Positions 3,084 to 16,156 of a DNA stretch of 16,257 bases are shown in pieces. Position 1 is the stretch's first letter, and each line of letters opens with the position of its first letter. A program made the translations under genes and the position numbers. The notes beneath the pieces were generated by a model. That model had not been told where the DNA came from, ran no database searches, and worked only from the letters and a program-made list of their open reading frames with translations. The stretch is taken from assembly GCA_902782475.1 (NCBI GenBank), contig CACZNR010000050.1, positions 1 through 16,257 on the forward strand, given 5' to 3'. The stretch is from an uncultured Eubacteriales bacterium (lineage in GTDB: Bacteria; Bacillota; Clostridia; Christensenellales; Christensenellaceae).

Positions 3084-4193
3084 TCATTTCGTCAGCATAT
3101 CCAGTGCTTCGCCTGCCTGATAGATAGAACCGGCAAAGACCACCATGACATCCTGATCCCCTATGTATTCTTTTGCTTTTCTGTAAGCATCTTCTGTGTC
3201 GCTGCAGAGAACAGTCTCCACCTCATCATCAAATATGGCAGCAAGTTCAGTATTCTTGAAACAGCGTTCATATTCCATCTGTGAAACGAATACCTTTTCA
3301 AACTGATCCTTTGCCATATCGTTAAAATATGTGACATCCTTATCCTTAAGTGCTGCACATACAAGGACTTTTCTCTTTCCGCCGTATACATTTTTCAGAG
3401 TATCGTGCAGGAACTTCAGAGAGTCCACATTGTGTGCACCATCCACAAGGACATTCTCCTTCTCAAGATACTGCTGACGGCCCAGAAGGAACGTGTCTTC
3501 CAGCGCTTCCTTTATGGCATCACCTGTTATGTTGAATCCCCTTCTGCGAAGTCCCATGGCTGATGCAATGGCAACTGAAGCATTCACATACTGAAGGCTC
3601 GTTGGGTTCTTGAGCATGACATTGCTGATCCCCATGTAGGAAAAGCTTCTGTCTTCATTTATCTTTATATCTTCAGGAAGGACCTCCTTTAATGAAGCCT
3701 TCCTGAGATATGCGGTGGTTTTTATAAGTGTGCTGACTTCCGGCACCTGAGGAGCAGAGATGACATCACCCTTCATCCTGACTGCAGCGATCTTTTCCAG
3801 CGCTATCTTCTGTATGGTATCGCCAAGGACATTCATGTGATCCATTCCTATCCTTGTGATGACCAGCTGCATGACGTCAAGTTCCGTAGCAGGGTCATAT
3901 CTTCCTCCCATGCCTGTCTCCATTACTGCAACATCGACATTCTGTTCGTGGAACCACATTATGGCTACCTGGAAAAACTTCCTGAAATATCCACTGACAG
4001 TTGTTTTCTTCATGTATCTTGCCAGGACATCGTCAGGGATATTCTTCCCGTCGATGCTGATCCTCTCATTCTCCACCTGGATATGAGGCGAAACGAACAG
4101 GCCTGTTTTATATCCTGCAGCAGTAAGTATATTGGCAATATATGTGGATGTGGATCCCTTGCCTTTTGTCCCGACTACCTGTAGAAATCTCAT
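3084..4193 (-). CDS. folC: Folylpolyglutamate/dihydrofolate synthase-like Mur ligase, short N-terminus
   Basis: A 369-residue ATP-dependent ligase of the FolC/Mur family, which adds glutamate to (dihydro)folate or dihydropteroate. Visible landmarks are the P-loop G-T-K-G-K-G-S at 8-14, S-P-H at 35-37, M-E-T-G-M-G-G-R at 91-98, the G-M-D-H segment ending at His119, an E-K at 133-134 (the lysine position carbamylated in characterised FolC) and D-G-A-H-N at 251-255. Usual FolC proteins are about 420-430 residues, with some 40-50 residues before the P-loop. This one starts 7 residues before it. The P-loop Asn is Lys and the usual Pro after D-G-A-H-N is Val. The ATG overlaps the valS stop as ATGA, which fixes the start and implies translational coupling. 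Whether it has one or both FolC activities is unclear. Confidence 0.8.
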   Translation of the reverse strand: MRFLQVVGTKGKGSTSTYIANILTAAGYKTGLFVSPHIQVENERISIDGKNIPDDVLARYMKKTTVSGYFRKFFQVAIMWFHEQNVDVAVMETGMGGRYDPATELDVMQLVITRIGMDHMNVLGDTIQKIALEKIAAVRMKGDVISAPQVPEVSTLIKTTAYLRKASLKEVLPEDIKINEDRSFSYMGISNVMLKNPTSLQYVNASVAIASAMGLRRRGFNITGDAIKEALEDTFLLGRQQYLEKENVLVDGAHNVDSLKFLHDTLKNVYGGKRKVLVCAALKDKDVTYFNDMAKDQFEKVFVSQMEYERCFKNTELAAIFDDEVETVLCSDTEDAYRKAKEYIGDQDVMVVFAGSIYQAGEALDMLTK

Positions 4194-6844
4194 TTTTTCT
4201 GCAACCTTTCCATTTCAGAGATCCTTGCAAGGGTAGCTTCCAGCATATCCCTGTACTTCGCAAGTTTTTCTCTTTCTTCGTTTACTACTGCTTCCGGAGC
4301 TCTGCTGGTGAACTTTTCATTGCTGAGCTTTCCTTCTGCACGTTTTACTTCACTCTCAAGATCGCTCTTTTCCTTGCCAAGTCTCTCCAGTTCCTTCTCT
4401 ATGTCTACCAGTTCTCCCATAGGCATGAAAGCTCTTGTATTCTGAGTGATGGCTGTTATGCTGCCTTCCGGTTCCTTGAAATCCTCATTTTCAAAATATA
4501 CCTCAGATGCATATGCAAGCCTTGTAAGGTAACTTCCTGCACTCTTTATCTTGTCGGATATCGAGGATGAAACATAAAGGGTCGCCTTCCTGCTCGGTGG
4601 AACATTCATCTGGGACCTTATGTTCCTTATGCTCCTTGTAAGTTCCATCACCTCTTCCATCGATGCAACTTCATCAGAGAATACATGTGCATCACTGCAT
4701 ACAGGCCATTCTGATATCATGATGCTTCCATCGTGTCCAAGCATTGTGGTATAGATCTCATCAGTGATGAAAGGCATTATCGGATGCAGGAGCTTGAGTG
4801 CATTCTCAAGTACATATACCAGTACTGAGATGGCTGTATCCTTCTCCCTGTCTGTGCCTTCATACAGTCTTGACTTGCACATCTCGATGTACCAGTCACA
4901 GTATTCGCTCCATATGAAGTCATATATCTTTTCTGAAGCAAGTCCGAGCTCGAATTTTTCCATGTTCTCGGTAACTTCGTTTATGACGCTGTTGAGCCTT
5001 GAGAGTATCCATTTATCCGATATGTCAAGTTCAAGTGCGTCCACGTCTTCCGTGATATTCCTGCCTTCCATGTTCATTGCCACGAATCTGGAAGCATTCC
5101 ATATCTTATTGCAGAAGTTGCTTGCAGCCTTTACCTTGCTGTCATAGTAACGCATGTCGTTTCCTGGACTTGTTCCCTGTGCCAGTGAGAACCTCAGTGA
5201 ATCTGCACCATATTCCTCGATGACCTTCAGAGGATCAATGCCGTTTCCAAGGGATTTGCTCATCTTTCTGCCCTGATCATCCCTTACTATTCCGTGTATG
5301 TTCACGTACTTGAAAGGAACATCTCCCATGGCTTCCAGTCCGAATACTATCATCCTGGCTACCCAGAAGAAGATTATGTCATATCCTGTTACAAGAACGT
5401 CTGTAGGATAGAAGTATTTGAGCTCCTCTGTCTGGTCAGGCCAGCCCATGGTGGAGAATGGCCAGAGTCCTGACGAGAACCATGTATCAAGGACATCTTC
5501 GTCCTGACGGAGCTTTCCTCCGCACTTCGGACATACTGTCTCATTGTTCTCTGATACGATCATCTCTCCGCAGTCATCACAGTAAAACACAGGTATCCTA
5601 TGTCCCCACCAGAGCTGACGGGATATGCACCAGTCTCTTATGTTCTCCATCCAGTTGAAGTATGTCTTTGAATACCTTTCAGGTATGAACTTTATCCTTC
5701 CGTCTCTTACAGCCTCTATGGCAGGCTCAGCCAGCGGCTTCATTGAAACGAACCACTGTGATGAGATGATAGGTTCGATGGTGGTACCGCATCTGTAGCA
5801 TTTTCCTACATTGTGGCTGTAATCCTCAATGCTTACAAGGTTTTCTAGCTCCTTGAGTTCTTCGACTATGTTGTCCCTTGCAACGAATCTGTCCTGTCCG
5901 CAGTATTTTCCGCCATTCTCGTTTACAACACCACCGTCATCCAGTACTCTTATTATCTCAAGTCCATGTCTCTGTGCGACTTCAAAGTCATTAGGGTCAT
6001 GGGCAGGTGTCATCTTTACGGCTCCTGTGCCGAATTCCATGTCAACATAGTCATCAGCCACTACAGGGATAGGTCTGTTCATGATAGGAAGGATAACATT
6101 CTTTCCTACGATGTCCTTATATCTCTCATCTGCAGGATTTACGGCAACACCTGTGTCACCAAGCATCGTCTCAGGTCTTGTGGTAGCAACTGTAACGCTG
6201 CCTGTACCGTCTTCAAGGTCGTACCTTATGTTCCAGAGATGTGAAGCCTGATCTTCATATTCGACCTCGACATCTGAAAGAGTCGTCCTGCACTTCGGAC
6301 ACCAGTTGATGATCCTGTTGCCCTTGTATATGAGTCCCTTGTTATACAGTCTTACGAACATGGACTTTACTGCACGGTTGCAGCCTTCATCCATGGTGAA
6401 ACGTTCTCTTTCCCAGTCACATGATGAACCAAGTTTCTTAAGCTGTGAAACTATCCTGCCACCATATTCTTCCTTCCACTTCCATGCACGCTTAAGGAAT
6501 TCCTCCCTTCCGATATCTTCCTTGGTGAGGCCTTCCTCCTTCTTCATCTGTTCAACTATCTTGACCTCTGTAGCAATGGAAGCATGGTCAGTTCCAGGCA
6601 TCCACAGAGTCTCATATCCCTGCATTCTCTTGAACCTGACGATGGAATCCTGCAGGGTATTGTCCAGCCCGTGTCCCATGTGCAGCTGCCCCGTGATATT
6701 TGGAGGCGGCATTACTATTGAGTAAGGCTTCTTGTTCTTGTTGGGTGTGGCATGGAAATATCCTCTTTCCATCCAGCGGGAATACAGTTTTTCCTCTACT
6801 TCAGCATGTGAATATGCCTTTGCGATCTCTTCCTGATTACTCAT
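4190..6844 (-). CDS. valS: Valyl-tRNA synthetase
   Basis: An 884-residue class I aminoacyl-tRNA synthetase that charges tRNA-Val. In order: the H-M-G-H form of the HIGH motif at 55-58; the editing domain with T-T-R-P-E-T-M-L-G-D near 221-230; zinc-finger-like C-x2-C pairs near 182-185, 349-352, 422-425 and 438-441; the K-M-S-K-S motif at 527-531; an anticodon-binding domain; and the ValRS C-terminal coiled coil from about 813 to the end. Length is normal. The start is the ATG at 6844, with AGGAG at 6852-6856 seven bases upstream. A longer frame from a GTG at 6910 begins inside the T-box and runs through the terminator, so it is not the start. Expression is controlled by the valine T-box leader. 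The stop overlaps the folC start. Confidence 0.97.
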   Translation of the reverse strand: MSNQEEIAKAYSHAEVEEKLYSRWMERGYFHATPNKNKKPYSIVMPPPNITGQLHMGHGLDNTLQDSIVRFKRMQGYETLWMPGTDHASIATEVKIVEQMKKEEGLTKEDIGREEFLKRAWKWKEEYGGRIVSQLKKLGSSCDWERERFTMDEGCNRAVKSMFVRLYNKGLIYKGNRIINWCPKCRTTLSDVEVEYEDQASHLWNIRYDLEDGTGSVTVATTRPETMLGDTGVAVNPADERYKDIVGKNVILPIMNRPIPVVADDYVDMEFGTGAVKMTPAHDPNDFEVAQRHGLEIIRVLDDGGVVNENGGKYCGQDRFVARDNIVEELKELENLVSIEDYSHNVGKCYRCGTTIEPIISSQWFVSMKPLAEPAIEAVRDGRIKFIPERYSKTYFNWMENIRDWCISRQLWWGHRIPVFYCDDCGEMIVSENNETVCPKCGGKLRQDEDVLDTWFSSGLWPFSTMGWPDQTEELKYFYPTDVLVTGYDIIFFWVARMIVFGLEAMGDVPFKYVNIHGIVRDDQGRKMSKSLGNGIDPLKVIEEYGADSLRFSLAQGTSPGNDMRYYDSKVKAASNFCNKIWNASRFVAMNMEGRNITEDVDALELDISDKWILSRLNSVINEVTENMEKFELGLASEKIYDFIWSEYCDWYIEMCKSRLYEGTDREKDTAISVLVYVLENALKLLHPIMPFITDEIYTTMLGHDGSIMISEWPVCSDAHVFSDEVASMEEVMELTRSIRNIRSQMNVPPSRKATLYVSSSISDKIKSAGSYLTRLAYASEVYFENEDFKEPEGSITAITQNTRAFMPMGELVDIEKELERLGKEKSDLESEVKRAEGKLSNEKFTSRAPEAVVNEEREKLAKYRDMLEATLARISEMERLQKK

Positions 6845-6856
6845 AATGTTTCTCCT

Positions 6857-6900
6857 AACAAAACTAAAGGCTTTTATCCTTATAAAAAGGACGAAAGCCC
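6857..6900 (-). terminator. T-box regulated intrinsic terminator of the valS leader
   Basis: On the minus strand GGCTTTCGTCC pairs with GGATAAAAGCC (one mismatch and one G-U pair) around a T/A-rich loop, followed by TTTAGTTTTGTT. The 5' arm shares its CGTCC with the antiterminator, as expected for a T-box switch. The U-rich tract ends directly before the valS ribosome binding site. Confidence 0.85.
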
Positions 6901-7100
6901 GTGTTACCACCTTTATTTCCCGGCCACCCTTTCAGGCACCGGCTCCTGATCCACTTACGTGGACACATGCTTAACGCGCATAAACGCCATATCCTTATCA
7001 GATATGGAGCTCCAAAGCAACATTCCCAATGTTCCATGCCGCTGTTATTTCAGCCAGGTAACAGCTCTCTGATGACAGTCCCAGAGGTACTCCTCTTCTT
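6857..7100 (-). promoter_or_regulatory. T-box riboswitch (tRNA-Val sensing) upstream of valS
   Basis: Read on the minus strand, the leader starts with the Stem I GA motif AGAGGA (7096-7091) and the loop-E AGTA (7091-7088), then an AGAGAG bulge with a CTGTTA/TAACAG stem. GGGAAT is followed by GTT at 7021-7019, the proposed valine specifier codon, with a purine after it as is usual. The conserved T-box sequence is at 6914-6900 (AAAGGTGGTAACACG) and holds the bases that pair with the tRNA acceptor end. AAAGG there can pair with CCTTT at 6890-6886 to form the antiterminator, which competes with the terminator downstream. Uncharged tRNA-Val should therefore allow readthrough into valS, folC, pnuC and the DUF1846 gene. 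The leader fills most of the 265 bases between pgsA and valS. Confidence 0.92.
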
Positions 7101-7109
7101 CACAGCATT

Positions 7110-7646
7110 TTATTTGTCTATAATGTCGTTTTTATTCCTCAGGGCATACTGTATCAGGCTTGCAACGCTTCCGGCCAGACCGATATATATGAACCACCTG
7201 TAGAAAGGATCAAGATATGCATGCAGGAAACATGTTGCAATAGAAGCATTGAACACGAATGCAGCTATCTTTCCGAAAAGATTGGAAGGCTGAACTCTTC
7301 TGGTATTCTTGGCCACCAGAAGGCCTCCCACTAACATAAGGAACTCCTTTGTGAAAATGACTATGGTCACCCATAACGGAAGGACTCCCTTTATGGTAAA
7401 AGCTACTATCACAAATACGGCCATGCACTTGTCAGCCAGAGGATCAAGGAATGTTCCAAGCTGTGTTATGAGACCGTAATGTCTTGCAATATAACCGTCA
7501 GCCAGATCCGTGAAACAAGCAAGAAGGAATACGACAAGAGCAACTATGTATCTGTCCTTCATGATGAGCATGAATACGACAGGTACCAGCAGCAGTCTTA
7601 TCATTGCAAGTATATTTGGTATATTGACTATTTTTTCCTTTTGCAC
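7110..7646 (-). CDS. pgsA: CDP-diacylglycerol--glycerol-3-phosphate 3-phosphatidyltransferase
   Basis: A 178-residue membrane enzyme that makes phosphatidylglycerophosphate from CDP-diacylglycerol and glycerol-3-phosphate, the first committed step to phosphatidylglycerol and cardiolipin. The CDP-alcohol phosphatidyltransferase signature D-x2-D-G-x2-A-R-x8-G-x3-D-x3-D is complete, with Asp47, Asp50, Asp68 and Asp72. The N-terminal N-I-P-N-I-L and several hydrophobic helices are typical of PgsA rather than other family members. I chose the GTG at 7646 because GGAGG (7654-7658) lies 7 bases upstream and the protein then begins just before the conserved region. A longer ATG start at 7700 lies within the promoter-proximal leader, has no such site, and adds residues not expected for the family. 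A good sigma-A-like promoter precedes it. valS with its T-box follows in the same direction. Confidence 0.92.
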   Translation of the reverse strand: MQKEKIVNIPNILAMIRLLLVPVVFMLIMKDRYIVALVVFLLACFTDLADGYIARHYGLITQLGTFLDPLADKCMAVFVIVAFTIKGVLPLWVTIVIFTKEFLMLVGGLLVAKNTRRVQPSNLFGKIAAFVFNASIATCFLHAYLDPFYRWFIYIGLAGSVASLIQYALRNKNDIIDK

Positions 7647-7682
7647 GGAAAAGCCTCCGAGTTTGCAATCTTTTACCGCATT

Positions 7683-7711
7683 ATTATACTCTTCAAGCAT
7701 TCAATATTCAA
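7683..7711 (-). promoter_or_regulatory. Sigma-A-like promoter for pgsA
   Basis: On the minus strand TTGAAT (7711-7706), a 17-base spacer and a perfect TATAAT (7688-7683). The start of transcription would be near 7676, giving a leader of about 30 bases before the GTG start. TTGAA occurs three times within this segment (the -35 and two copies in the spacer), which could also be an operator, but no regulator can be named. Confidence 0.7.
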
Positions 7712-7816
7712 GAAGTTTGATGCCTCCATGTCCCTGTAGGCCCCATATTCACGTACTTTTTATTCATATAATTATAATTTTTGCTGTTACCATTCATTAA
7801 ACTGCCTCTCAGCATG

Positions 7817-7845
7817 TTATCAATGCACTTCTTCTGTTTTATAAT
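7817..7845 (+). promoter_or_regulatory. Sigma-A-like promoter for the ROK kinase-pyrophosphatase pair
   Basis: TTATCA (7817-7822), a 17-base spacer and TATAAT (7840-7845), placed 30 bases before the kinase ATG. The bases between this promoter and the divergent pgsA promoter (7712-7816) are A/T-rich and show no gene or strong hairpin. Confidence 0.65.
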
Positions 7846-7874
7846 ATAAAAAACAAACTTAAGGAGTGATACAG

Positions 7875-8837
7875 ATGACCTATGCATTAGGTATCGATAT
7901 AGGCGGTACAAAGATAGCTATTGGGATCATGAACAGCGACAATGAGATGCTGTGTACTGATTCCTTCCTCATAGAGGGCATGACTGCCATCAGCATCTTC
8001 GTAAAGATGCAGGACACCATAGAAGAGCTCGTGCGCGAAGCCGGACTCAAGAAGGACGATATCTCAAGTATCGGTATCGGTGTCCCCGGCATAATCAACA
8101 AGGACAGAAGATCGGTCCTTTTTGCTCCGAACATCCCTCTTCTCAATGATTTCCCGCTTTACAGGTCTCTCAGGAACATGTTCCCTGATGCATCGATAGT
8201 GCTTGAAAACGATGCAAATGCTGCAGGCCTTGCTGAAAGCATACTGGGAGCGGGCAAGAATTTTGACAACATGATCTACTGCACCATCTCAACTGGTGTC
8301 GGTGCCGGCATCATAATCGACCACAAGCTGTTCCGCGGAAGCCATCTTGCTGCAGGTGAGATAGGACACATGATAACCTTCCCTGACGGTGAGCCATGCG
8401 GCTGCGGAAACAGAGGCTGTGCCGAAGCATATGCAGGTGGAGCAAACTATCCGAAGTATATAAGGCATGTCATAGATTCAGGAAGGGAGACCATACTCAA
8501 GGACTACCTTGAAGCACACGGCACCATAGATGGAAGAGCCCTTTCATTTGGTCTCGATAATCATGACGCCCTGGCAGAAGAGGTCTTCTCAAAGATCTGC
8601 AGGACCATAGGCATACTTTTCTTCAATCTTTACAAATGTCTCAATATCGACTGCTACATTCTCGGTGGTGGACTCACAAACCTCGGTGACAAGCTTTTCA
8701 CGGGCATTGAAGAGAATTTCCAGAAGCTCAGGGTCGGTGCAGATACCATGGAAAAGGTATATTTCCTGCCTGCACATTTCACATCGAATGAGATAGGTAT
8801 ATACGGAGCAGCCCTGGTTGCTCTCGAAAACAGATAA
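7875..8837 (+). CDS. ROK-family sugar kinase (glucokinase-like)
   Basis: A 320-residue cytoplasmic kinase of the ROK family, which phosphorylates glucose or related hexoses with ATP. The N-terminal phosphate loop G-I-D-I-G-G-T-K is at 6-13, the catalytic E-N-D at 111-113, G-E-I-G-H with zinc-ligand His165, and the zinc motif C-G-C-G-N-R-G-C at 175-182. No N-terminal helix-turn-helix is present, so it is an enzyme and not a ROK repressor. The ATG at 7875 follows AGGAG (7862-7866) by 8 bases. A GTG at 7866 overlaps that site and is not used. The pyrophosphatase gene starts 15 bases after its stop, in one operon. Glucose is the default substrate guess; other hexoses, N-acetylmannosamine or allose remain possible. 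Confidence 0.9.
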   Translation: MTYALGIDIGGTKIAIGIMNSDNEMLCTDSFLIEGMTAISIFVKMQDTIEELVREAGLKKDDISSIGIGVPGIINKDRRSVLFAPNIPLLNDFPLYRSLRNMFPDASIVLENDANAAGLAESILGAGKNFDNMIYCTISTGVGAGIIIDHKLFRGSHLAAGEIGHMITFPDGEPCGCGNRGCAEAYAGGANYPKYIRHVIDSGRETILKDYLEAHGTIDGRALSFGLDNHDALAEEVFSKICRTIGILFFNLYKCLNIDCYILGGGLTNLGDKLFTGIEENFQKLRVGADTMEKVYFLPAHFTSNEIGIYGAALVALENR

Positions 8838-8852
8838 AGGAAGGTACTGTAT

Positions 8853-9395
8853 ATGAACATGAATACTGTATGGCACTCCATAGATCCATCGAGAGTTTCA
8901 CCTGACGACTTTCTCTGTGTCGTCGAGATCGCCAAGGGAAGCAAGAAAAAATATGAACTGGACAAGGATTCAGGGCTCATAATCCTGGACAGGATACTGT
9001 ATACATCAACACACTATCCTGCAAATTATGGCTTCATCCCGAAGACTCTCGGTTCAGACCATGACCCGCTGGATGTCCTGGTGCTGTGCTCAGAGCCGCT
9101 GGATCCCCTTACACTGGTAAGATGCTATCCAATAGGACTGATACCAATGGTCGACAGCGGACTTGAAGATGAAAAGATAATAGCCATCCCTTTTGCAGAC
9201 CCTTCATACAACAACATAACCAACATAGCTGATCTTCAGCCTCATGTAATAAGGGAGATAAGGCATTTCTTCAGAGTCTATGGTGAGCTTCAGAACAAGG
9301 TCACCAATGTAGAGAAGGCTACGGGGCCGAATGCCGCAAAGAAGGTCATTGCCGAAGCCATCGAAAGATACAGGGAAAACTTCCCTGAAGCATAA
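8853..9395 (+). CDS. ppa: Family I inorganic pyrophosphatase
   Basis: A 180-residue soluble pyrophosphatase hydrolysing PPi to two phosphates, which pulls biosynthetic reactions forward. Active-site residues of the family are visible: Glu25 and Lys28 in V-V-E-I-A-K-G-S, Glu35 in K-Y-E-L-D, Tyr59, the D-x-D-P-L-D metal cluster (Asp69, Asp71, Asp74) and Asp101, Asp106 and Lys108 in M-V-D-S-G-L-E-D-E-K. Length is normal for prokaryotic family I. AGGAAGG at 8838-8844 lies 8 bases before the ATG at 8853. Another ATG six bases on is a weaker choice. It is the second gene of a two-gene operon with the ROK kinase and is followed by a terminator-like hairpin. Confidence 0.93.
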   Translation: MNMNTVWHSIDPSRVSPDDFLCVVEIAKGSKKKYELDKDSGLIILDRILYTSTHYPANYGFIPKTLGSDHDPLDVLVLCSEPLDPLTLVRCYPIGLIPMVDSGLEDEKIIAIPFADPSYNNITNIADLQPHVIREIRHFFRVYGELQNKVTNVEKATGPNAAKKVIAEAIERYRENFPEA

Positions 9396-9413
9396 GTAAG
9401 GAATATAAACACC

Positions 9414-9448
9414 AATGGTGTGGAACACTGTCCACGCCATTTATATAT
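9414..9448. terminator. Hairpin terminator shared by ppa and the AEC permease gene
   Basis: AATGGTGTGGA (9414-9424) pairs with TCCACGCCATT (9431-9441) over 11 pairs, including one G-U, with a 6-base loop. Flanks are A/T-rich (TATATATC to the right) but lack a clean T run. Its position between convergent stops at 9395 and 9452 supports a bidirectional terminator. Confidence 0.65.
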
Positions 9449-9451
9449 CTC

Positions 9452-10465
9452 TCAGATTATTCCTATGGAGCGTATCACTACGCAAAGTATGAACAATGTC
9501 AGCATGCCGAACACACTGCTCCAGACTACCACCTGGCCTGCAAGCTTGTCATCCGCCCCCATCTCTCCTGACATGACCACAGATGCGACTGCTACAGGTG
9601 AACCGTATGTAGCCACAAGGACTGCAGATATCTCAGGTGTGATAGTGAGTATCCCGAGCTTGTCGGCAAGTATCGCAAGGCCAAATCCTATGACAGGTGC
9701 GGCTACAAGTCTCAGTGCAACCGAAGCTACGAGTTCCTTTTTGTAATCCCCGATCTTTCCTATCTCAAGCTGTGCTCCAAGAAGTATGAGCGCCACAGGA
9801 GTCACCATGCTTGCAAGATATCCTATGGTCTTGTAGAGCCACGGCAGATCACGGTCTATCCTGAATACTGCTTCACCATCAAATCCCACAGGAAGCATTC
9901 CCCTTACAACAAGTATGAGAAGTCCGGCCAGAAGTCCCAGGATTATAGGATTCGTGAATATGGACTTTGCTATCCCGAGCACACTTACCTTTCTGTTTTC
10001 TCCTGTTGCATATACGCTTAATATCGTCACCGCCATGATGTTGAAGAACAGTATCGTAGGGAGCTGACATATGGAAGCAAGCTGCACGGCTGTCTTTCCC
10101 ACAAGTCCCTCAGCCAGTACAAGTCCTATAATGGCATAGTTGGATCTGAACCCTGCATTTATTATGACCGGTCTTCTTGTATTGTCCCTTGTCACAAGTG
10201 TCGCAACGATAAAGCTGACAAACAGTACTACAGCAAGGCTTACTATCAGGAACAGATACAGATCCCATGGGATGCTGAATCCGGAATCGAGCCCATAGAC
10301 ATTGTTTATCATCATGCACGGGAAGCAGAACCTGAACATGAATTTGTTCATCTGCTTTATGGTCGTATCCGATAGAAGTCCTATGCGTTTTGCTATATAG
10401 CCTACAACTATCAGAAGCAGTACCGGTCCAATGGCGTTGAAAGAAAAAGCTAAAACAGAAGTCAT
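9452..10465 (-). CDS. AEC-family (auxin efflux carrier-like) transporter
   Basis: A 337-residue integral membrane protein with about ten hydrophobic segments in two halves separated by a polar stretch near the middle. This matches the AEC/bile-arsenite-riboflavin transporter superfamily architecture. Recognisable segments include F-R-S-N-Y-A-I-I-G in the first half, L-L-G-A-Q-L-E-I-G in the second, and P-V-A-V-A-S near the C-terminus. Bacterial AEC members export or import organic acids such as malate or malonate; the substrate here cannot be told. The ATG at 10465 is preceded by GGAAAGG. It follows the cytidylate-kinase-like gene by 17 bases, so both are read from the promoter at 11138-11166. 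Confidence 0.88.
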   Translation of the reverse strand: MTSVLAFSFNAIGPVLLLIVVGYIAKRIGLLSDTTIKQMNKFMFRFCFPCMMINNVYGLDSGFSIPWDLYLFLIVSLAVVLFVSFIVATLVTRDNTRRPVIINAGFRSNYAIIGLVLAEGLVGKTAVQLASICQLPTILFFNIMAVTILSVYATGENRKVSVLGIAKSIFTNPIILGLLAGLLILVVRGMLPVGFDGEAVFRIDRDLPWLYKTIGYLASMVTPVALILLGAQLEIGKIGDYKKELVASVALRLVAAPVIGFGLAILADKLGILTITPEISAVLVATYGSPVAVASVVMSGEMGADDKLAGQVVVWSSVFGMLTLFILCVVIRSIGII

Positions 10466-12894: not shown

Positions 12895-12937
12895 TCACTT
12901 ATCATTTACTCACAGTTAAGACAGGAGGATAAAAGAT

Positions 12938-13672
12938 ATGGCAAACATAATGACATTCAACAGGACGGAAAAGAAGTACTTCATGACCGAAGACACATAC
13001 AGAAGATTCCTTGGAGCCATATCCCCATACATCGAGGCAGGAGACTTTCCAAAGAGCAGGATACAGAATCTGTACTTTGATACTCCGGACTTCTATTACA
13101 TAAGAAACTCCATAGACGCTGTAAACTACAAGGAAAAAGTAAGGCTAAGATGCTATGGAGAAGCTTCACCGGATTCCACAGTATTCCTTGAAATAAAGAA
13201 AAAATGCAACGGAATCGTTTACAAGAGAAGAGAGACAATGAAGCTTCGTGAAGCGGAGTTCTATATCAGGACAGGCCTAATGCCCAAGACTACCCAGATC
13301 ATGAAGGAGATCGACTATACAGTAAAGCAGAGAGAAGATACAGCTCCTGCAGTATATATAAGCTATGACAGGGATTCATACTGGGCAAAGGAAGACCATG
13401 ACATAAGGATCACCTTTGACAGCAACATACTGGCAAGGGTCAACGATCTGGACCTGAGATCAGGGATATACGGAAACAGAGTGATGCCGGAAAACACAAG
13501 GCTTCTGGAGATAAAGGTCTCCGACCACATGCCGATATGGCTCGCAAAAGCATTGTCACTGTACAGGATCTATCCTGCATCCTTTTCAAAATACGGAAAG
13601 GCATACAGGGATGGCCTGTGGAAATATTACACAGATAAAAAAGGAGTTGAGAAAAATGTCATCAATTTTTGA
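12938..13672 (+). CDS. VTC-domain (polyphosphate polymerase-like) protein
   Basis: A 244-residue cytoplasmic protein of the VTC-domain family, with the triphosphate-tunnel fold seen in yeast Vtc4, which builds polyphosphate from ATP. Charged beta-strand motifs that line the tunnel are visible: R-T-E-K-K-Y at 9-14, K-V-R-L-R at 67-71, L-E-I-K-K-K at 84-89 with K-R-R at 96-98, Y-D-R at 143-145, R-I-T-F-D at 157-161, L-E-I-K-V at 190-194 and S-K-Y at 217-219. No SPX domain or membrane segment is present, as in bacterial stand-alone members. GGAGG at 12924-12928 lies 9 bases before the ATG. The next gene starts 17 bases before this stop. Polyphosphate synthesis is inferred from the fold; nucleotide- or polymer-modifying activity is also possible. 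Confidence 0.88.
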   Translation: MANIMTFNRTEKKYFMTEDTYRRFLGAISPYIEAGDFPKSRIQNLYFDTPDFYYIRNSIDAVNYKEKVRLRCYGEASPDSTVFLEIKKKCNGIVYKRRETMKLREAEFYIRTGLMPKTTQIMKEIDYTVKQREDTAPAVYISYDRDSYWAKEDHDIRITFDSNILARVNDLDLRSGIYGNRVMPENTRLLEIKVSDHMPIWLAKALSLYRIYPASFSKYGKAYRDGLWKYYTDKKGVEKNVINF

Positions 13673-14324
13673 TTCAGTATTAACAGGTACTTTTACAGCA
13701 GATATATTTCTGTACTGTCTGCTGGCATCACTGCTCTGTGGAGCCATAATCTCCGCAGCAACAGGTTACAGGAACAAGGTAAGCAAAGGCTTTCTGATAT
13801 CCATAGTCCTAATGCCTGCAGTGGTGTTTGCCGTCATCACCATGGTCAATGGAAACATCGGCACAGGAGTTGCGGTAATGGGAGCCTTCTCCCTCATAAG
13901 GTTCAGGTCCAATGCAGGAAAAGCCAAGGACATACTCTCCATATTCCTGGCAATGACATCCGGACTTGCATGTGCAGCAGGATATATCGTCATCGGCATA
14001 CTATTCGCACTGGTGATTAGTATTATAATGGTATTGCTTGTGAAGCTCTACGGAGCACAGGACAAGAAGATGACTCTGAATATCACCATTCCTGAGTCAC
14101 TGGAATTTGAAAACAACTTTGACGACCTGTTCGACAAGTACACAAAACAGGCAGATCTCATAAAGACCAAGACAGCAAACATGGGAAGCCTCTACAAGCT
14201 TCAGTATGAGCTGACCATGAAAAAGGGTACGAGCATAAAGAATTTCCTGGATGACCTGCGCTGCAGGAACGGAAACCTTGAGATATCTATATTCGAGACC
14301 AAGGAGGATGAAGAACAATTATGA
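13656..14324 (+). CDS. DUF4956 membrane protein
   Basis: A 222-residue protein with an N-terminal membrane domain of about four helices (roughly 15-36, 46-66 and a long hydrophobic stretch 93-130 that can form two) and a soluble C-terminal domain of about 90 residues. The family hallmark, F-S-L-I-R-F-R-S-N at 78-86 followed by K-D-I-L-S-I-F-L-A-M, is present between helices and supplies two arginines near the membrane face. Function is unknown. DUF4956 genes commonly sit beside VTC-domain and CotH genes, as I recall from clostridial genomes. The ATG at 13656 has GGAG at 13643-13646, 9 bases upstream. A longer frame from 13611 lacks a ribosome site and lies inside the VTC gene. It overlaps VTC by 17 bases and the next gene by 4. 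Confidence 0.87.
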   Translation: MSSIFDSVLTGTFTADIFLYCLLASLLCGAIISAATGYRNKVSKGFLISIVLMPAVVFAVITMVNGNIGTGVAVMGAFSLIRFRSNAGKAKDILSIFLAMTSGLACAAGYIVIGILFALVISIIMVLLVKLYGAQDKKMTLNITIPESLEFENNFDDLFDKYTKQADLIKTKTANMGSLYKLQYELTMKKGTSIKNFLDDLRCRNGNLEISIFETKEDEEQL

Positions 14325-16156
14325 AAAAGGATCTTATAAAAGCAGCAGCACTGTCCCTCATACTGGGACTGCTGTTTACAGGATGCTCCAGGGAAGCATC
14401 CGTCATATCATCAGACACCGCTGCAGTATCATCATCTGTCGTAAGCGATGTCACGGCGGAGACCGCAGAACCAAGTCATGCTGCCACCCTCAGCTATTCA
14501 GCCGACATAGACATGACATTCTCAAATTCTGATGTCAGCGATGATGTGGATACTTCCACTGCCTGTGATATCACCATTTCAGGAAGTGATGTGTCCATCG
14601 AAGGAAAAGGTGCTGTATACTCTGACGGGATACTGTCCATCACTGAAGGTGGCACATATGTCCTTACAGGTTCATCAGATGACATCATGATATACATTGA
14701 GACCGGAGACGAAGAAAAGGTTTACCTGATACTCGATAACTGCACATTGGCAAACGATGACGGCCCTGTCATCTATATAAAGGAGTCAGACAAGGTCTTC
14801 CTGTATTCACCACAGGGCACGGTCAATGCCCTTTCGGATTCCTCGTCATATTCAGATGAATATACTGCTGAAAGCATTGACGGATGTGTATTTTCAAGGG
14901 CTGATCTTACCATAAACGGATCAGGCAGCCTTACCATAACAGGTAACTACAAGCACGCCGTAGTATCAAAGGATGACCTGGTCGTCTCAGCGACAGCTCT
15001 TGACGTCTCATCAGTATCTGCAGGGCTCGAAGGCAAGGACTGTGTCAAAATAACAGGCGCTGACATAAGCATTTCTTCCGGCACGGACGGCATCCGCTCC
15101 ACAAATGAGGAGGATGGGTCCAGGGGCTATGTATATATCGAAAATTCCAGCATAGATATCAGCTGCGGAAATGACGGCATACAGGCAGTAACGCTTCTTT
15201 ATGCATCATCTTCAGAGATCAGTGTAGTAAGCGGCACAACATCAGGCTCATCTACATCAGACTCATACAAGGGACTCAAGGCAGACCTTGACATATATCT
15301 AAAGGACTGTACAGTCACCGTGGACACAGCGGATGATGCGATCCACGCAAACGAGACTGTCGTTATCGACGGAGGATCATATACTCTCTCCTCAGAGGAT
15401 GACGGGATACACGCAGATACCGATCTGTCTATCCTGGAAGGTGCTGTAAACATAGAAAATAGCTATGAAGGCCTTGAAGCCACAGTGATCGACATATCAG
15501 GCGGCACAGTTACCATAAATGCCAGTGATGACGGCATAAATGCGGCCGGTGGCAGCAATACATCAAGCCAGTTCAGTCCGATGTTTGGAGGTGACAATTT
15601 CTCAGGCGGTTCAGGTGAACTGATAATCGACGGTGGATATGTATATGTCAACTCCTTAGGAGACGGACTTGATGCAAACGGATCCATCACCATAAACGGA
15701 GGCATAACACTTGTAAGCGGTCCTGTCAACAACGGCAACGGTGCCCTGGACTATGACCAGAGTGCGTCCATAAACGGTGGCGTCCTCGTAGCTGCTGGTT
15801 CCTCAGGCATGGCCCAGAACCTCAGTTCCAGCGATAGCCAGGCATCTGTGCTCTACAACGTGGGTAATCTTTCAGCCGGAACTGCCATAAGCATCACAGA
15901 TGAAAACGGAAACGTGATCCTTTCGTTCACACCAGAGAAGAACTATCAGACAGTGGTATTCAGTGCTCCAGGGCTCAAGTCCGGTAACACATACAGGATA
16001 GTAAGCGGAGGAACTGTATCAGGTGCTGACACCTACGGATTCTCTCAGTCAGGCACCATAAGCGGTGGCACTGAGATAGCTGAGATAGATATTGAGAGCA
16101 ATATCTTCGGCGGCACAGGCGGATTCGGTGGCGGAGGCTTTGGCGGAAAGCATTAA
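14321..16156 (+). CDS. Exported lipoprotein with beta-helix (DUF4353, carbohydrate-binding domain-containing)
   Basis: A 611-residue surface protein. It begins with a lipoprotein signal (M-K-K, a hydrophobic core at 8-19 and L-F-T-G-C with Cys22), then a Ser/Ala/Thr-rich linker to about residue 60. The body matches the 'carbohydrate-binding domain-containing' DUF4353 family. Turns of the form D-D-G-I-x-A recur at 233, 255, 284, 316, 338, 360, 382, 403 and 447, mostly 22 residues apart, which is the pitch of a right-handed beta-helix. A C-terminal beta domain follows, then a glycine-rich tail (F-G-G-T-G-G-F-G-G-G-G-F-G-G-K-H). The start overlaps the DUF4956 stop as ATGA, with GGAGG 13 bases upstream, so translation is probably coupled. 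Sugar binding is a family label only; no ligand site can be seen. No terminator follows before the intron end. Confidence 0.87.
   Translation: MKKDLIKAAALSLILGLLFTGCSREASVISSDTAAVSSSVVSDVTAETAEPSHAATLSYSADIDMTFSNSDVSDDVDTSTACDITISGSDVSIEGKGAVYSDGILSITEGGTYVLTGSSDDIMIYIETGDEEKVYLILDNCTLANDDGPVIYIKESDKVFLYSPQGTVNALSDSSSYSDEYTAESIDGCVFSRADLTINGSGSLTITGNYKHAVVSKDDLVVSATALDVSSVSAGLEGKDCVKITGADISISSGTDGIRSTNEEDGSRGYVYIENSSIDISCGNDGIQAVTLLYASSSEISVVSGTTSGSSTSDSYKGLKADLDIYLKDCTVTVDTADDAIHANETVVIDGGSYTLSSEDDGIHADTDLSILEGAVNIENSYEGLEATVIDISGGTVTINASDDGINAAGGSNTSSQFSPMFGGDNFSGGSGELIIDGGYVYVNSLGDGLDANGSITINGGITLVSGPVNNGNGALDYDQSASINGGVLVAAGSSGMAQNLSSSDSQASVLYNVGNLSAGTAISITDENGNVILSFTPEKNYQTVVFSAPGLKSGNTYRIVSGGTVSGADTYGFSQSGTISGGTEIAEIDIESNIFGGTGGFGGGGFGGKH

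Follow-up and report, generated by a model that had tools for sequence, protein, structure and literature searches.

A three-gene cassette at the end of a contig

We analysed a stretch of 16,257 nucleotides from an uncultured Eubacteriales bacterium (the window; GenBank assembly GCA_902782475.1, contig CACZNR010000050.1), which is the whole of contig C50 of a 1.38-Mb assembly (G000) that is 85% complete. Near its 3' end, three genes encode a VTC-domain enzyme, a DUF4956 membrane protein and a beta-helix lipoprotein of the Cthe_2159 family (Table 1). A preliminary description made from the letters alone had these genes overlapping by 17 and 4 bases, and their coordinates agree: the VTC and DUF4956 genes share 17 bases and the DUF4956 and lipoprotein genes share 4. 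An alternative in-frame ATG for DUF4956 lies upstream at 13611, and we prefer the start at 13656 because AGGAG precedes it at 13642-13646. The VTC gene is the only match to its family in its own assembly, and an NCBIfam scan supplied no name for any of the three proteins.

Table 1. Features of the cassette, in positions of the window
Feature	Position	Strand	Basis
Ribosome-binding site of the VTC gene, AGGAGG	12923..12928	+	sequence reading
VTC-domain enzyme, 244 aa, lineage I, predicted cytoplasmic tunnel polyphosphate polymerase	12938..13672	+	PF09359 E 2.4e-41; tree
Codons of R69-L-R71, aligned with Vtc4 R264 and R266	13142..13150	+	kept in 132/132 VTC rows
Ribosome-binding site of the DUF4956 gene, AGGAG, within the 3' end of the VTC gene	13642..13646	+	sequence reading
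DUF4956 membrane protein, 222 aa, MgtC-related, candidate polyphosphate channel	13656..14324	+	PF16316 E 2e-15
Codons of R82-F83-R84, predicted cytoplasmic end of helix 3	13899..13907	+	conservation, model
Ribosome-binding site of the lipoprotein gene, AAGGAGG	14301..14307	+	sequence reading
Cthe_2159-family beta-helix lipoprotein, 611 aa, predicted extracellular partner	14321..16156	+	PF14262 E 2.5e-81
Codon of predicted lipidated Cys22	14384..14386	+	Cys conservation, lipobox-like pattern

Features of the three proteins

The VTC protein has PF09359 as its sole Pfam match (residues 8-223), and Pfam finds in it neither an SPX domain nor a membrane domain of its own, as eukaryotic VTC subunits have. 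When a profile of 12 proteins from its lineage (lineage I, see below) was compared with solved structures, catalytic Vtc4 (3g3q) came first at E 1.1e-15 and Vtc2 ranked lower at E 1.6e-7. We aligned 132 bacterial VTC rows with fragments of Vtc4 (133 rows in all, 132 different). The window protein is identical to Vtc4 at K200, R264, R266, E279, K281, K294, R361, R373, E426, K428, S457 and K458, and each of these 12 positions carries the same residue in 130-132 of the 132 rows, the exceptions being gaps and one lysine for arginine. Altogether 12 of 13 active-site positions are kept, K455 being the exception, and R196, also checked, is retained. Apart from R264 and R266, these are the positions that we take to form the active site. 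According to the available part of PMC8749416, synthesis requires the ATP-binding residues R264 and R266, in vivo as well as in vitro. By its predicted fold and residues the protein thus classes as a Vtc4-type tunnel enzyme, the relative of polyphosphate polymerases named in the preliminary description, and it probably builds phosphate chains from ATP in the manner of Vtc4. The possibility that VTC merely replaces PPK1 was rejected, PPK1 being present in 14 of 34 genomes with VTC and in 10 of 47 without it; none was found in the window's own assembly, 85% complete as it is. Fusion of VTC to a membrane domain was also considered and rejected, since the long proteins at loci L053, L056 and L064 match the VTC domain alone in Pfam. 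Their N-terminal extensions of about 190-275 residues (all three in lineage II) have no Pfam match and read as charged linkers. At another locus, L089, a weak CotH match (E 0.0083) follows the VTC domain.

The second protein passes the PF16316 cut-off (57.4 against 30.6 bits), and its predicted model consists of five long helices and an ACT-like domain (pLDDT 86.8). The conserved arginines noted in the preliminary description stood up to alignment: R82, F83 and R84 are identical in 97, 98 and 99% of 130 aligned proteins (these are residues 97-99 when numbered from the upstream ATG). In the model the helix 67-82 precedes this R-F-R motif, and basic residues are present in the loops 38-43 and 83-89 and absent from 64-66 and 108-110. 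The same description called the protein one of unknown function, a label that can now be improved. An hhalign comparison with the MgtC/SapB family (PF02308) gave 96.5% at E 7.4e-10 and spanned both the membrane part and the tail. The homology is detected by profile-profile comparison only, the window protein having no match to the Pfam MgtC model up to E 0.1, and a related DUF4956 gene in genome G020 matches that model at E 5.6e-4, under the cut-off. From these comparisons, MgtC-related with an ACT-like tail appears a better description than unknown membrane protein. Unlike MgtC/SapB, the window protein carries a GAFS-x-x-RFR motif and is paired with VTC.

The third protein was described as exported, and it does begin with a signal peptide containing LFTGC. 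Among 37 aligned cassette proteins Cys22 is at least 90% conserved and a lipobox-like pattern is found in 32. The protein has both the Pfam match (PF14262) and the beta-helix fold that define the Cthe_2159 family, and it is acidic, with a predicted pI of 4.05. It differs from Cthe_2159 itself (4peu, 4phb) in being a predicted lipoprotein in a VTC operon, and in having an additional C-terminal part (about 337-611) past the stretch aligned to the crystal structure. The idea that this C-terminal half is special to VTC cassettes was ruled out, as it is found in genomes without VTC as well. In the genome comparison of PMC6712302, as far as its available text goes, Cthe_2159 and CotH are both among the domains unique to anaerobic rumen fungi, an echo of the two partners described below.

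Two lineages of VTC-DUF4956 pairs with two different partners

We next consider how these families are distributed among 81 genomes of the window's order, its own included. They contain 57 VTC matches, 52 of which have DUF4956 within 1.5 kb, an adjacency far beyond chance that upholds the partnership proposed in the preliminary description. Within 5 kb of the 52 pairs we found CotH without Cthe_2159 at 30, Cthe_2159 without CotH at 10, both at 1 and neither at 11, some of these misses being due to contig ends. The two partners thus avoid each other (Fisher p 1.9e-4; the p-values in this study are guides only, since related genomes are not independent). For 56 of the 57 matches, the window included and an 82-residue fragment left aside, gene order could be read on the same strand within 2.5 kb: Cthe_2159 lies downstream at 10 (the window is one), CotH downstream at 11 and upstream of VTC at 18, both are present at 1 and neither at 16. 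A scan of GTDB with the lineage I profile gave 591 confirmed matches, and among the best 80, a set that leans to lineage I, DUF4956 stands beside VTC at 79. The two genes overlap in 58 of these 79, and Cthe_2159 follows the pair directly in 53 and lies elsewhere in 2, the contig ending too soon in 2 more; CotH is found somewhere in the locus in 3. The three families therefore do recur together in the order seen in the window, just as the tunnel lysines and arginines are present on alignment, findings on which the preliminary description had let its proposal depend.

Trees were built for both proteins. In the VTC tree (54 rows, two fragments omitted; a quick search with SH-aLRT support only), 9 of the 10 VTC proteins linked to Cthe_2159 fall in one clade of 14 rows (lineage I, 99%). 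The other side (lineage II, 40 rows, 99%) holds all 29 whose only same-strand partner is CotH, together with L043, which has both partners. One lineage I locus, L044, has CotH 2.4 kb away on the opposite strand. The DUF4956 tree (53 rows) splits in the same way, and VTC and DUF4956 co-vary, as judged from their pairwise distances: the correlation is 0.91 over 51 pairs, a value inflated by the two-clade split, 0.78 within lineage II (permuted maximum 0.25) and 0.87 within lineage I (permuted maximum 0.80). The tenth Cthe_2159-linked locus, L037, is grouped in either tree (support 98-99%) with pairs that otherwise have CotH downstream, one other member of this set having no partner found; its closest placement, beside L070 and L075, has weaker support (80-92%). 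Since L037 carries Cthe_2159 in the slot where its set-mates have CotH, we read it as an independent partner swap.

The same association is seen at the level of whole genomes. In the 81 genomes, Cthe_2159 occurs in all 14 with lineage I (G009 and G077 being assigned by profile score, G077 also by the DUF4956 tree) and in 12 of the 67 others, and CotH occurs in all 28 with lineage II and in 10 of the 53 others. We then drew 159 genomes from across the phylum, dropping G000 and two fragments, G108 and G236, and assigned lineages by bit score (284-300 against 72-125, with no overlap). In this draw Cthe_2159 is present in 5 of 5 lineage I genomes, and each time the gene begins 0.97-1.27 kb downstream from the VTC gene; at the three of these loci that were read, DUF4956 stands between them. 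CotH is present in 17 of 18 lineage II genomes, the exception, G101, having Cthe_2159 on another contig instead; of 20 lineage II loci, 15 have CotH no more than 5 kb away. Among 20 VTC-free genomes taken from the 136 without a match, none has Cthe_2159 and one has CotH. Pooling both sets, Cthe_2159 is found in 19 of 19 lineage I genomes and CotH in 45 of 46 lineage II genomes, and the 67 genomes without VTC have them in 9 and 8 cases, respectively. Judged from trees and gene content, then, VTC-DUF4956 pairs fall into two deep lineages, each with its own outside partner, and from these counts and the slot swap at L037 the beta-helix protein takes CotH's place in a dedicated lineage, as the preliminary description had guessed on finding no CotH in the window. 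At the genome level the rule is "has its own partner" and not "lacks the other", partly because 11 genomes hold both lineages. Six of them (G021, G040, G051, G100, G179 and G180) have Cthe_2159 next to the lineage I pair, with CotH next to a lineage II pair of the same genome; the remaining five (G007, G061, G071, G076 and G077) lack the full pattern.

Two further observations concern the wider distribution and the variety of these loci. Among 14 control genomes, VTC and DUF4956 are present in the same three, Bacteroides ihuae, with Cthe_2159 and without CotH, and Corynebacterium glutamicum and Methanosarcina acetivorans, both with CotH and without Cthe_2159; presence alone was scored. At L040 (genome G033) the VTC-DUF4956 pair is followed by a 1734-residue protein (4820-10024) with several Cthe_2159 matches, a second Cthe_2159 gene lies upstream and three two-component pairs lie around these genes.

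Surroundings of the cassette

No CotH gene was found on the window's contig, which stops 101 bases after the Cthe_2159 gene, and the latter fills the slot after DUF4956. The one CotH gene of the assembly lies on another contig without VTC (C43:1250-2167), where two FtsX permeases and an ABC ATPase adjoin it, and its protein (L031 2-2239) also has lamin-tail and chitobiase C-terminal domains. Shortly past the lipoprotein gene, at the contig end, is the 3' end of a group II intron (RF00029, 16175-16246, minus strand), a stretch present in a single copy in the assembly. Elsewhere in the window are a T-box leader (RF00230, 6884-7112, minus strand, 104.8 bits) upstream of a valyl-tRNA synthetase gene (4190-6910) and an inorganic pyrophosphatase (PF00719, 8853-9395, plus strand), probably a housekeeping gene, 3.5 kb from the VTC gene. 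Scans for promoters (9 found, 6.6 expected) and terminators (2 found, 2.5 expected) gave numbers not clearly above those of shuffled sequence. A plasmid context was rejected, as the lipoprotein has matches in just 3 of 72,556 plasmid records, at 28-33% identity.

Discussion

In the eukaryotic VTC complex, according to the available portion of PMC9911596, polyphosphate is made in the cytosol and fed through a basic channel. The window's enzyme shares the tunnel-domain catalytic residues of that complex (Vtc1/3/4) and likewise goes with a membrane part that has conserved arginines. Unlike the eukaryotic system, it has no SPX and membrane domains, its membrane part is a separate DUF4956 gene, and there is an extra gene for an extracellular partner. 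We envision a scenario in which a cytoplasmic VTC enzyme, by the indication of its residues, polymerises phosphate from ATP. The near-obligate pairing, the gene overlap and the co-variation make it very likely that this enzyme sits on DUF4956. The enzyme keeps its active site and lacks a membrane domain, for which DUF4956 is the natural candidate to stand in: oligomerising, and with R-F-R at its cytoplasmic mouth, it might replace the eukaryotic membrane channel and carry the chain out, an assignment that we consider slightly less likely than not. The existence of extracellular partners in turn points to an external site for the product or its effect, where a dedicated partner would hold or use the chain, and together these considerations make polyphosphate export the most economical reading. 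Taken as a whole, this split bacterial VTC machine, with synthesis inside, export by DUF4956 and a partner outside that anchors or uses polyphosphate, is a tentative proposal that we regard as somewhat more doubtful than the channel itself. In lineage I, calcium could let the acidic Cthe_2159-type lipoprotein bind and retain polyphosphate or an acidic glycan; CotH, the secreted kinase of lineage II, could take polyphosphate as a phosphate donor where ATP is scarce; and the likely end would be the building or cross-linking of the cell surface or biofilm matrix. In this most specific form, a modular secretion system in which VTC feeds an MgtC-fold channel and each of two lineages is coupled to a different, unrelated surface protein, CotH using the exported polymer as donor and a calcium-dependent lipoprotein anchoring it or cross-linking it to acidic glycans, the proposal is speculative and rather unlikely to hold in every part.

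Several observations weigh against polyphosphate export by such a machine. VTC activity, the VTC-DUF4956 complex and transport are all deduced from residues and gene patterns; the window's enzyme lacks K455 of Vtc4 and differs also at R253 and K256, which were checked as well; and 14 of the 34 VTC genomes have PPK1 as well. On the membrane side, matches to solved structures, those from Foldseek among them, reach only the soluble tail of DUF4956, and we know of no MgtC protein that serves as a polymer channel. As to the partners, 22 of the 79 pairs among the best 80 of 591 loci have room for Cthe_2159 and yet no such gene after them. The two-part Cthe_2159 architecture is not special to cassettes, the family exists without VTC (in the 9 of 67 genomes noted above), and cassette and orphan genes form no separate clades in its tree. 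Moreover, CotH is also present in 15 of 19 lineage I genomes (under the cut-off in G043), and Cthe_2159 in 19 of 46 lineage II genomes against 9 of 67 without VTC (p 0.002). Finally, deletion of the VTC gene SIR_1593 of Streptococcus intermedius has no reported effect on aggregation or Pel in the available text of PMC12345266.

An alternative to polyphosphate export is that the cassette is an accessory module for exopolysaccharide. In this view VTC-DUF4956 acts on a surface glycan or its lipid carrier, which it sets or phosphorylates, and the glycan is held or acted upon by either CotH or the beta-helix protein. Sets of polyphosphate polymerase, DUF4956 and CotH are already known, so far as the accessible parts of three papers describe them: such genes (also DUF4832) are accessory to Gram-positive pel loci (PMC7112168), a related set is found in NELoc-2 of Clostridium perfringens (PMC2879425), whose "tubulin/FtsZ" genes we take to be DUF4956 from their place and size, and in S. 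intermedius deletion of SIR_1592 raises Pel and that of the CotH gene SIR_1594 lowers it, aggregation also being changed (PMC12345266). Four CotH-type loci (L045, L057, L060 and L062) run on from VTC-DUF4956-CotH into genes for a large protein, a HEAT protein and a GT2 enzyme. These loci make up a second conserved set, of six genes, that resembles NELoc-2. The HEAT and GT2 calls were made with home-made profiles and checked in Pfam on L045, whose large protein has no match. That Cthe_2159 binds cellulose and polygalacturonate, as stated in the available text of PMC6712302, also favours a glycan. Against this, 12 of 13 presumed active-site positions are kept, which would be needless in a mere regulator; no glycosyltransferase family was found among the Pfam-scanned window proteins, though the contig end cuts the downstream side; and PelG is over the cut-off in 2 of the 81 genomes, neither time on a contig with VTC (the assemblies are fragmented), a result that led us to reject a Pel locus as the home of the cassette. 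In the window's own assembly no PelG was above the cut-off (29 bits), the nearest being an 18.6-bit match on contig C92, an absence that is not certain at 85% completeness. On balance we consider the glycan module unlikely. The authors of PMC12345266, in the part available, report no instance of the three-gene arrangement away from the Pel locus; given the scarcity of PelG and the presence of CotH within 5 kb of 31 of 52 pairs, that remark fails beyond their set. In the pel-locus and NELoc-2 sets, so far as those sources go, a VTC-DUF4956 core adjoins an exported protein as it does here, and the window differs from them in its lineage I VTC and DUF4956, its Cthe_2159 lipoprotein for CotH and its lack of PelG above the cut-off.

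We consider it distinctly improbable that the cassette is instead a regulatory module, in which an MgtC-like DUF4956 with its ACT-like domain would keep phosphate or ATP in balance at the membrane, with (poly)phosphate supplied or sensed by VTC and the surface protein an adhesin under shared regulation. Its tail and its MgtC kinship are what such a role would build on; cytoplasmic regulation, however, does not predict two unrelated extracellular partners, and the neighbouring two-component pairs look generic, a phosphate-specific system having been rejected because, for 8 such proteins, not one of the 25 top-ranking NCBIfam families listed per protein was over its cut-off. Plain co-regulation or a shared niche, in which fibre-attached gut bacteria tend to have both families and the third gene has no mechanistic link, is very unlikely, for although Clostridia supply 74 of the best 80 of 591 loci, with gut or rumen in many of the titles, and the intermingled Cthe_2159 clades and the enrichment of that family in lineage II genomes fit such a view, it hardly explains the six genomes in which one cell has each partner next to the pair it belongs with (a point limited by the other five) or the mutual avoidance of CotH and Cthe_2159 at the 52 pairs.

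In the literature searched, which omits most subscription papers, we found no description of a link between the Cthe_2159 family and VTC or DUF4956, or of the two lineages, and no established function of bacterial VTC-domain proteins. If polyphosphate export by the split VTC machine is correct, these proteins would gain a testable role in coupled polyphosphate synthesis and export, apart from PPK, and DUF4956 would be offered a function. It would also explain how CotH, as a secreted kinase, could function with little ATP available. The partner rule of the two lineages makes a sharp prediction that can be tested by gene deletion.

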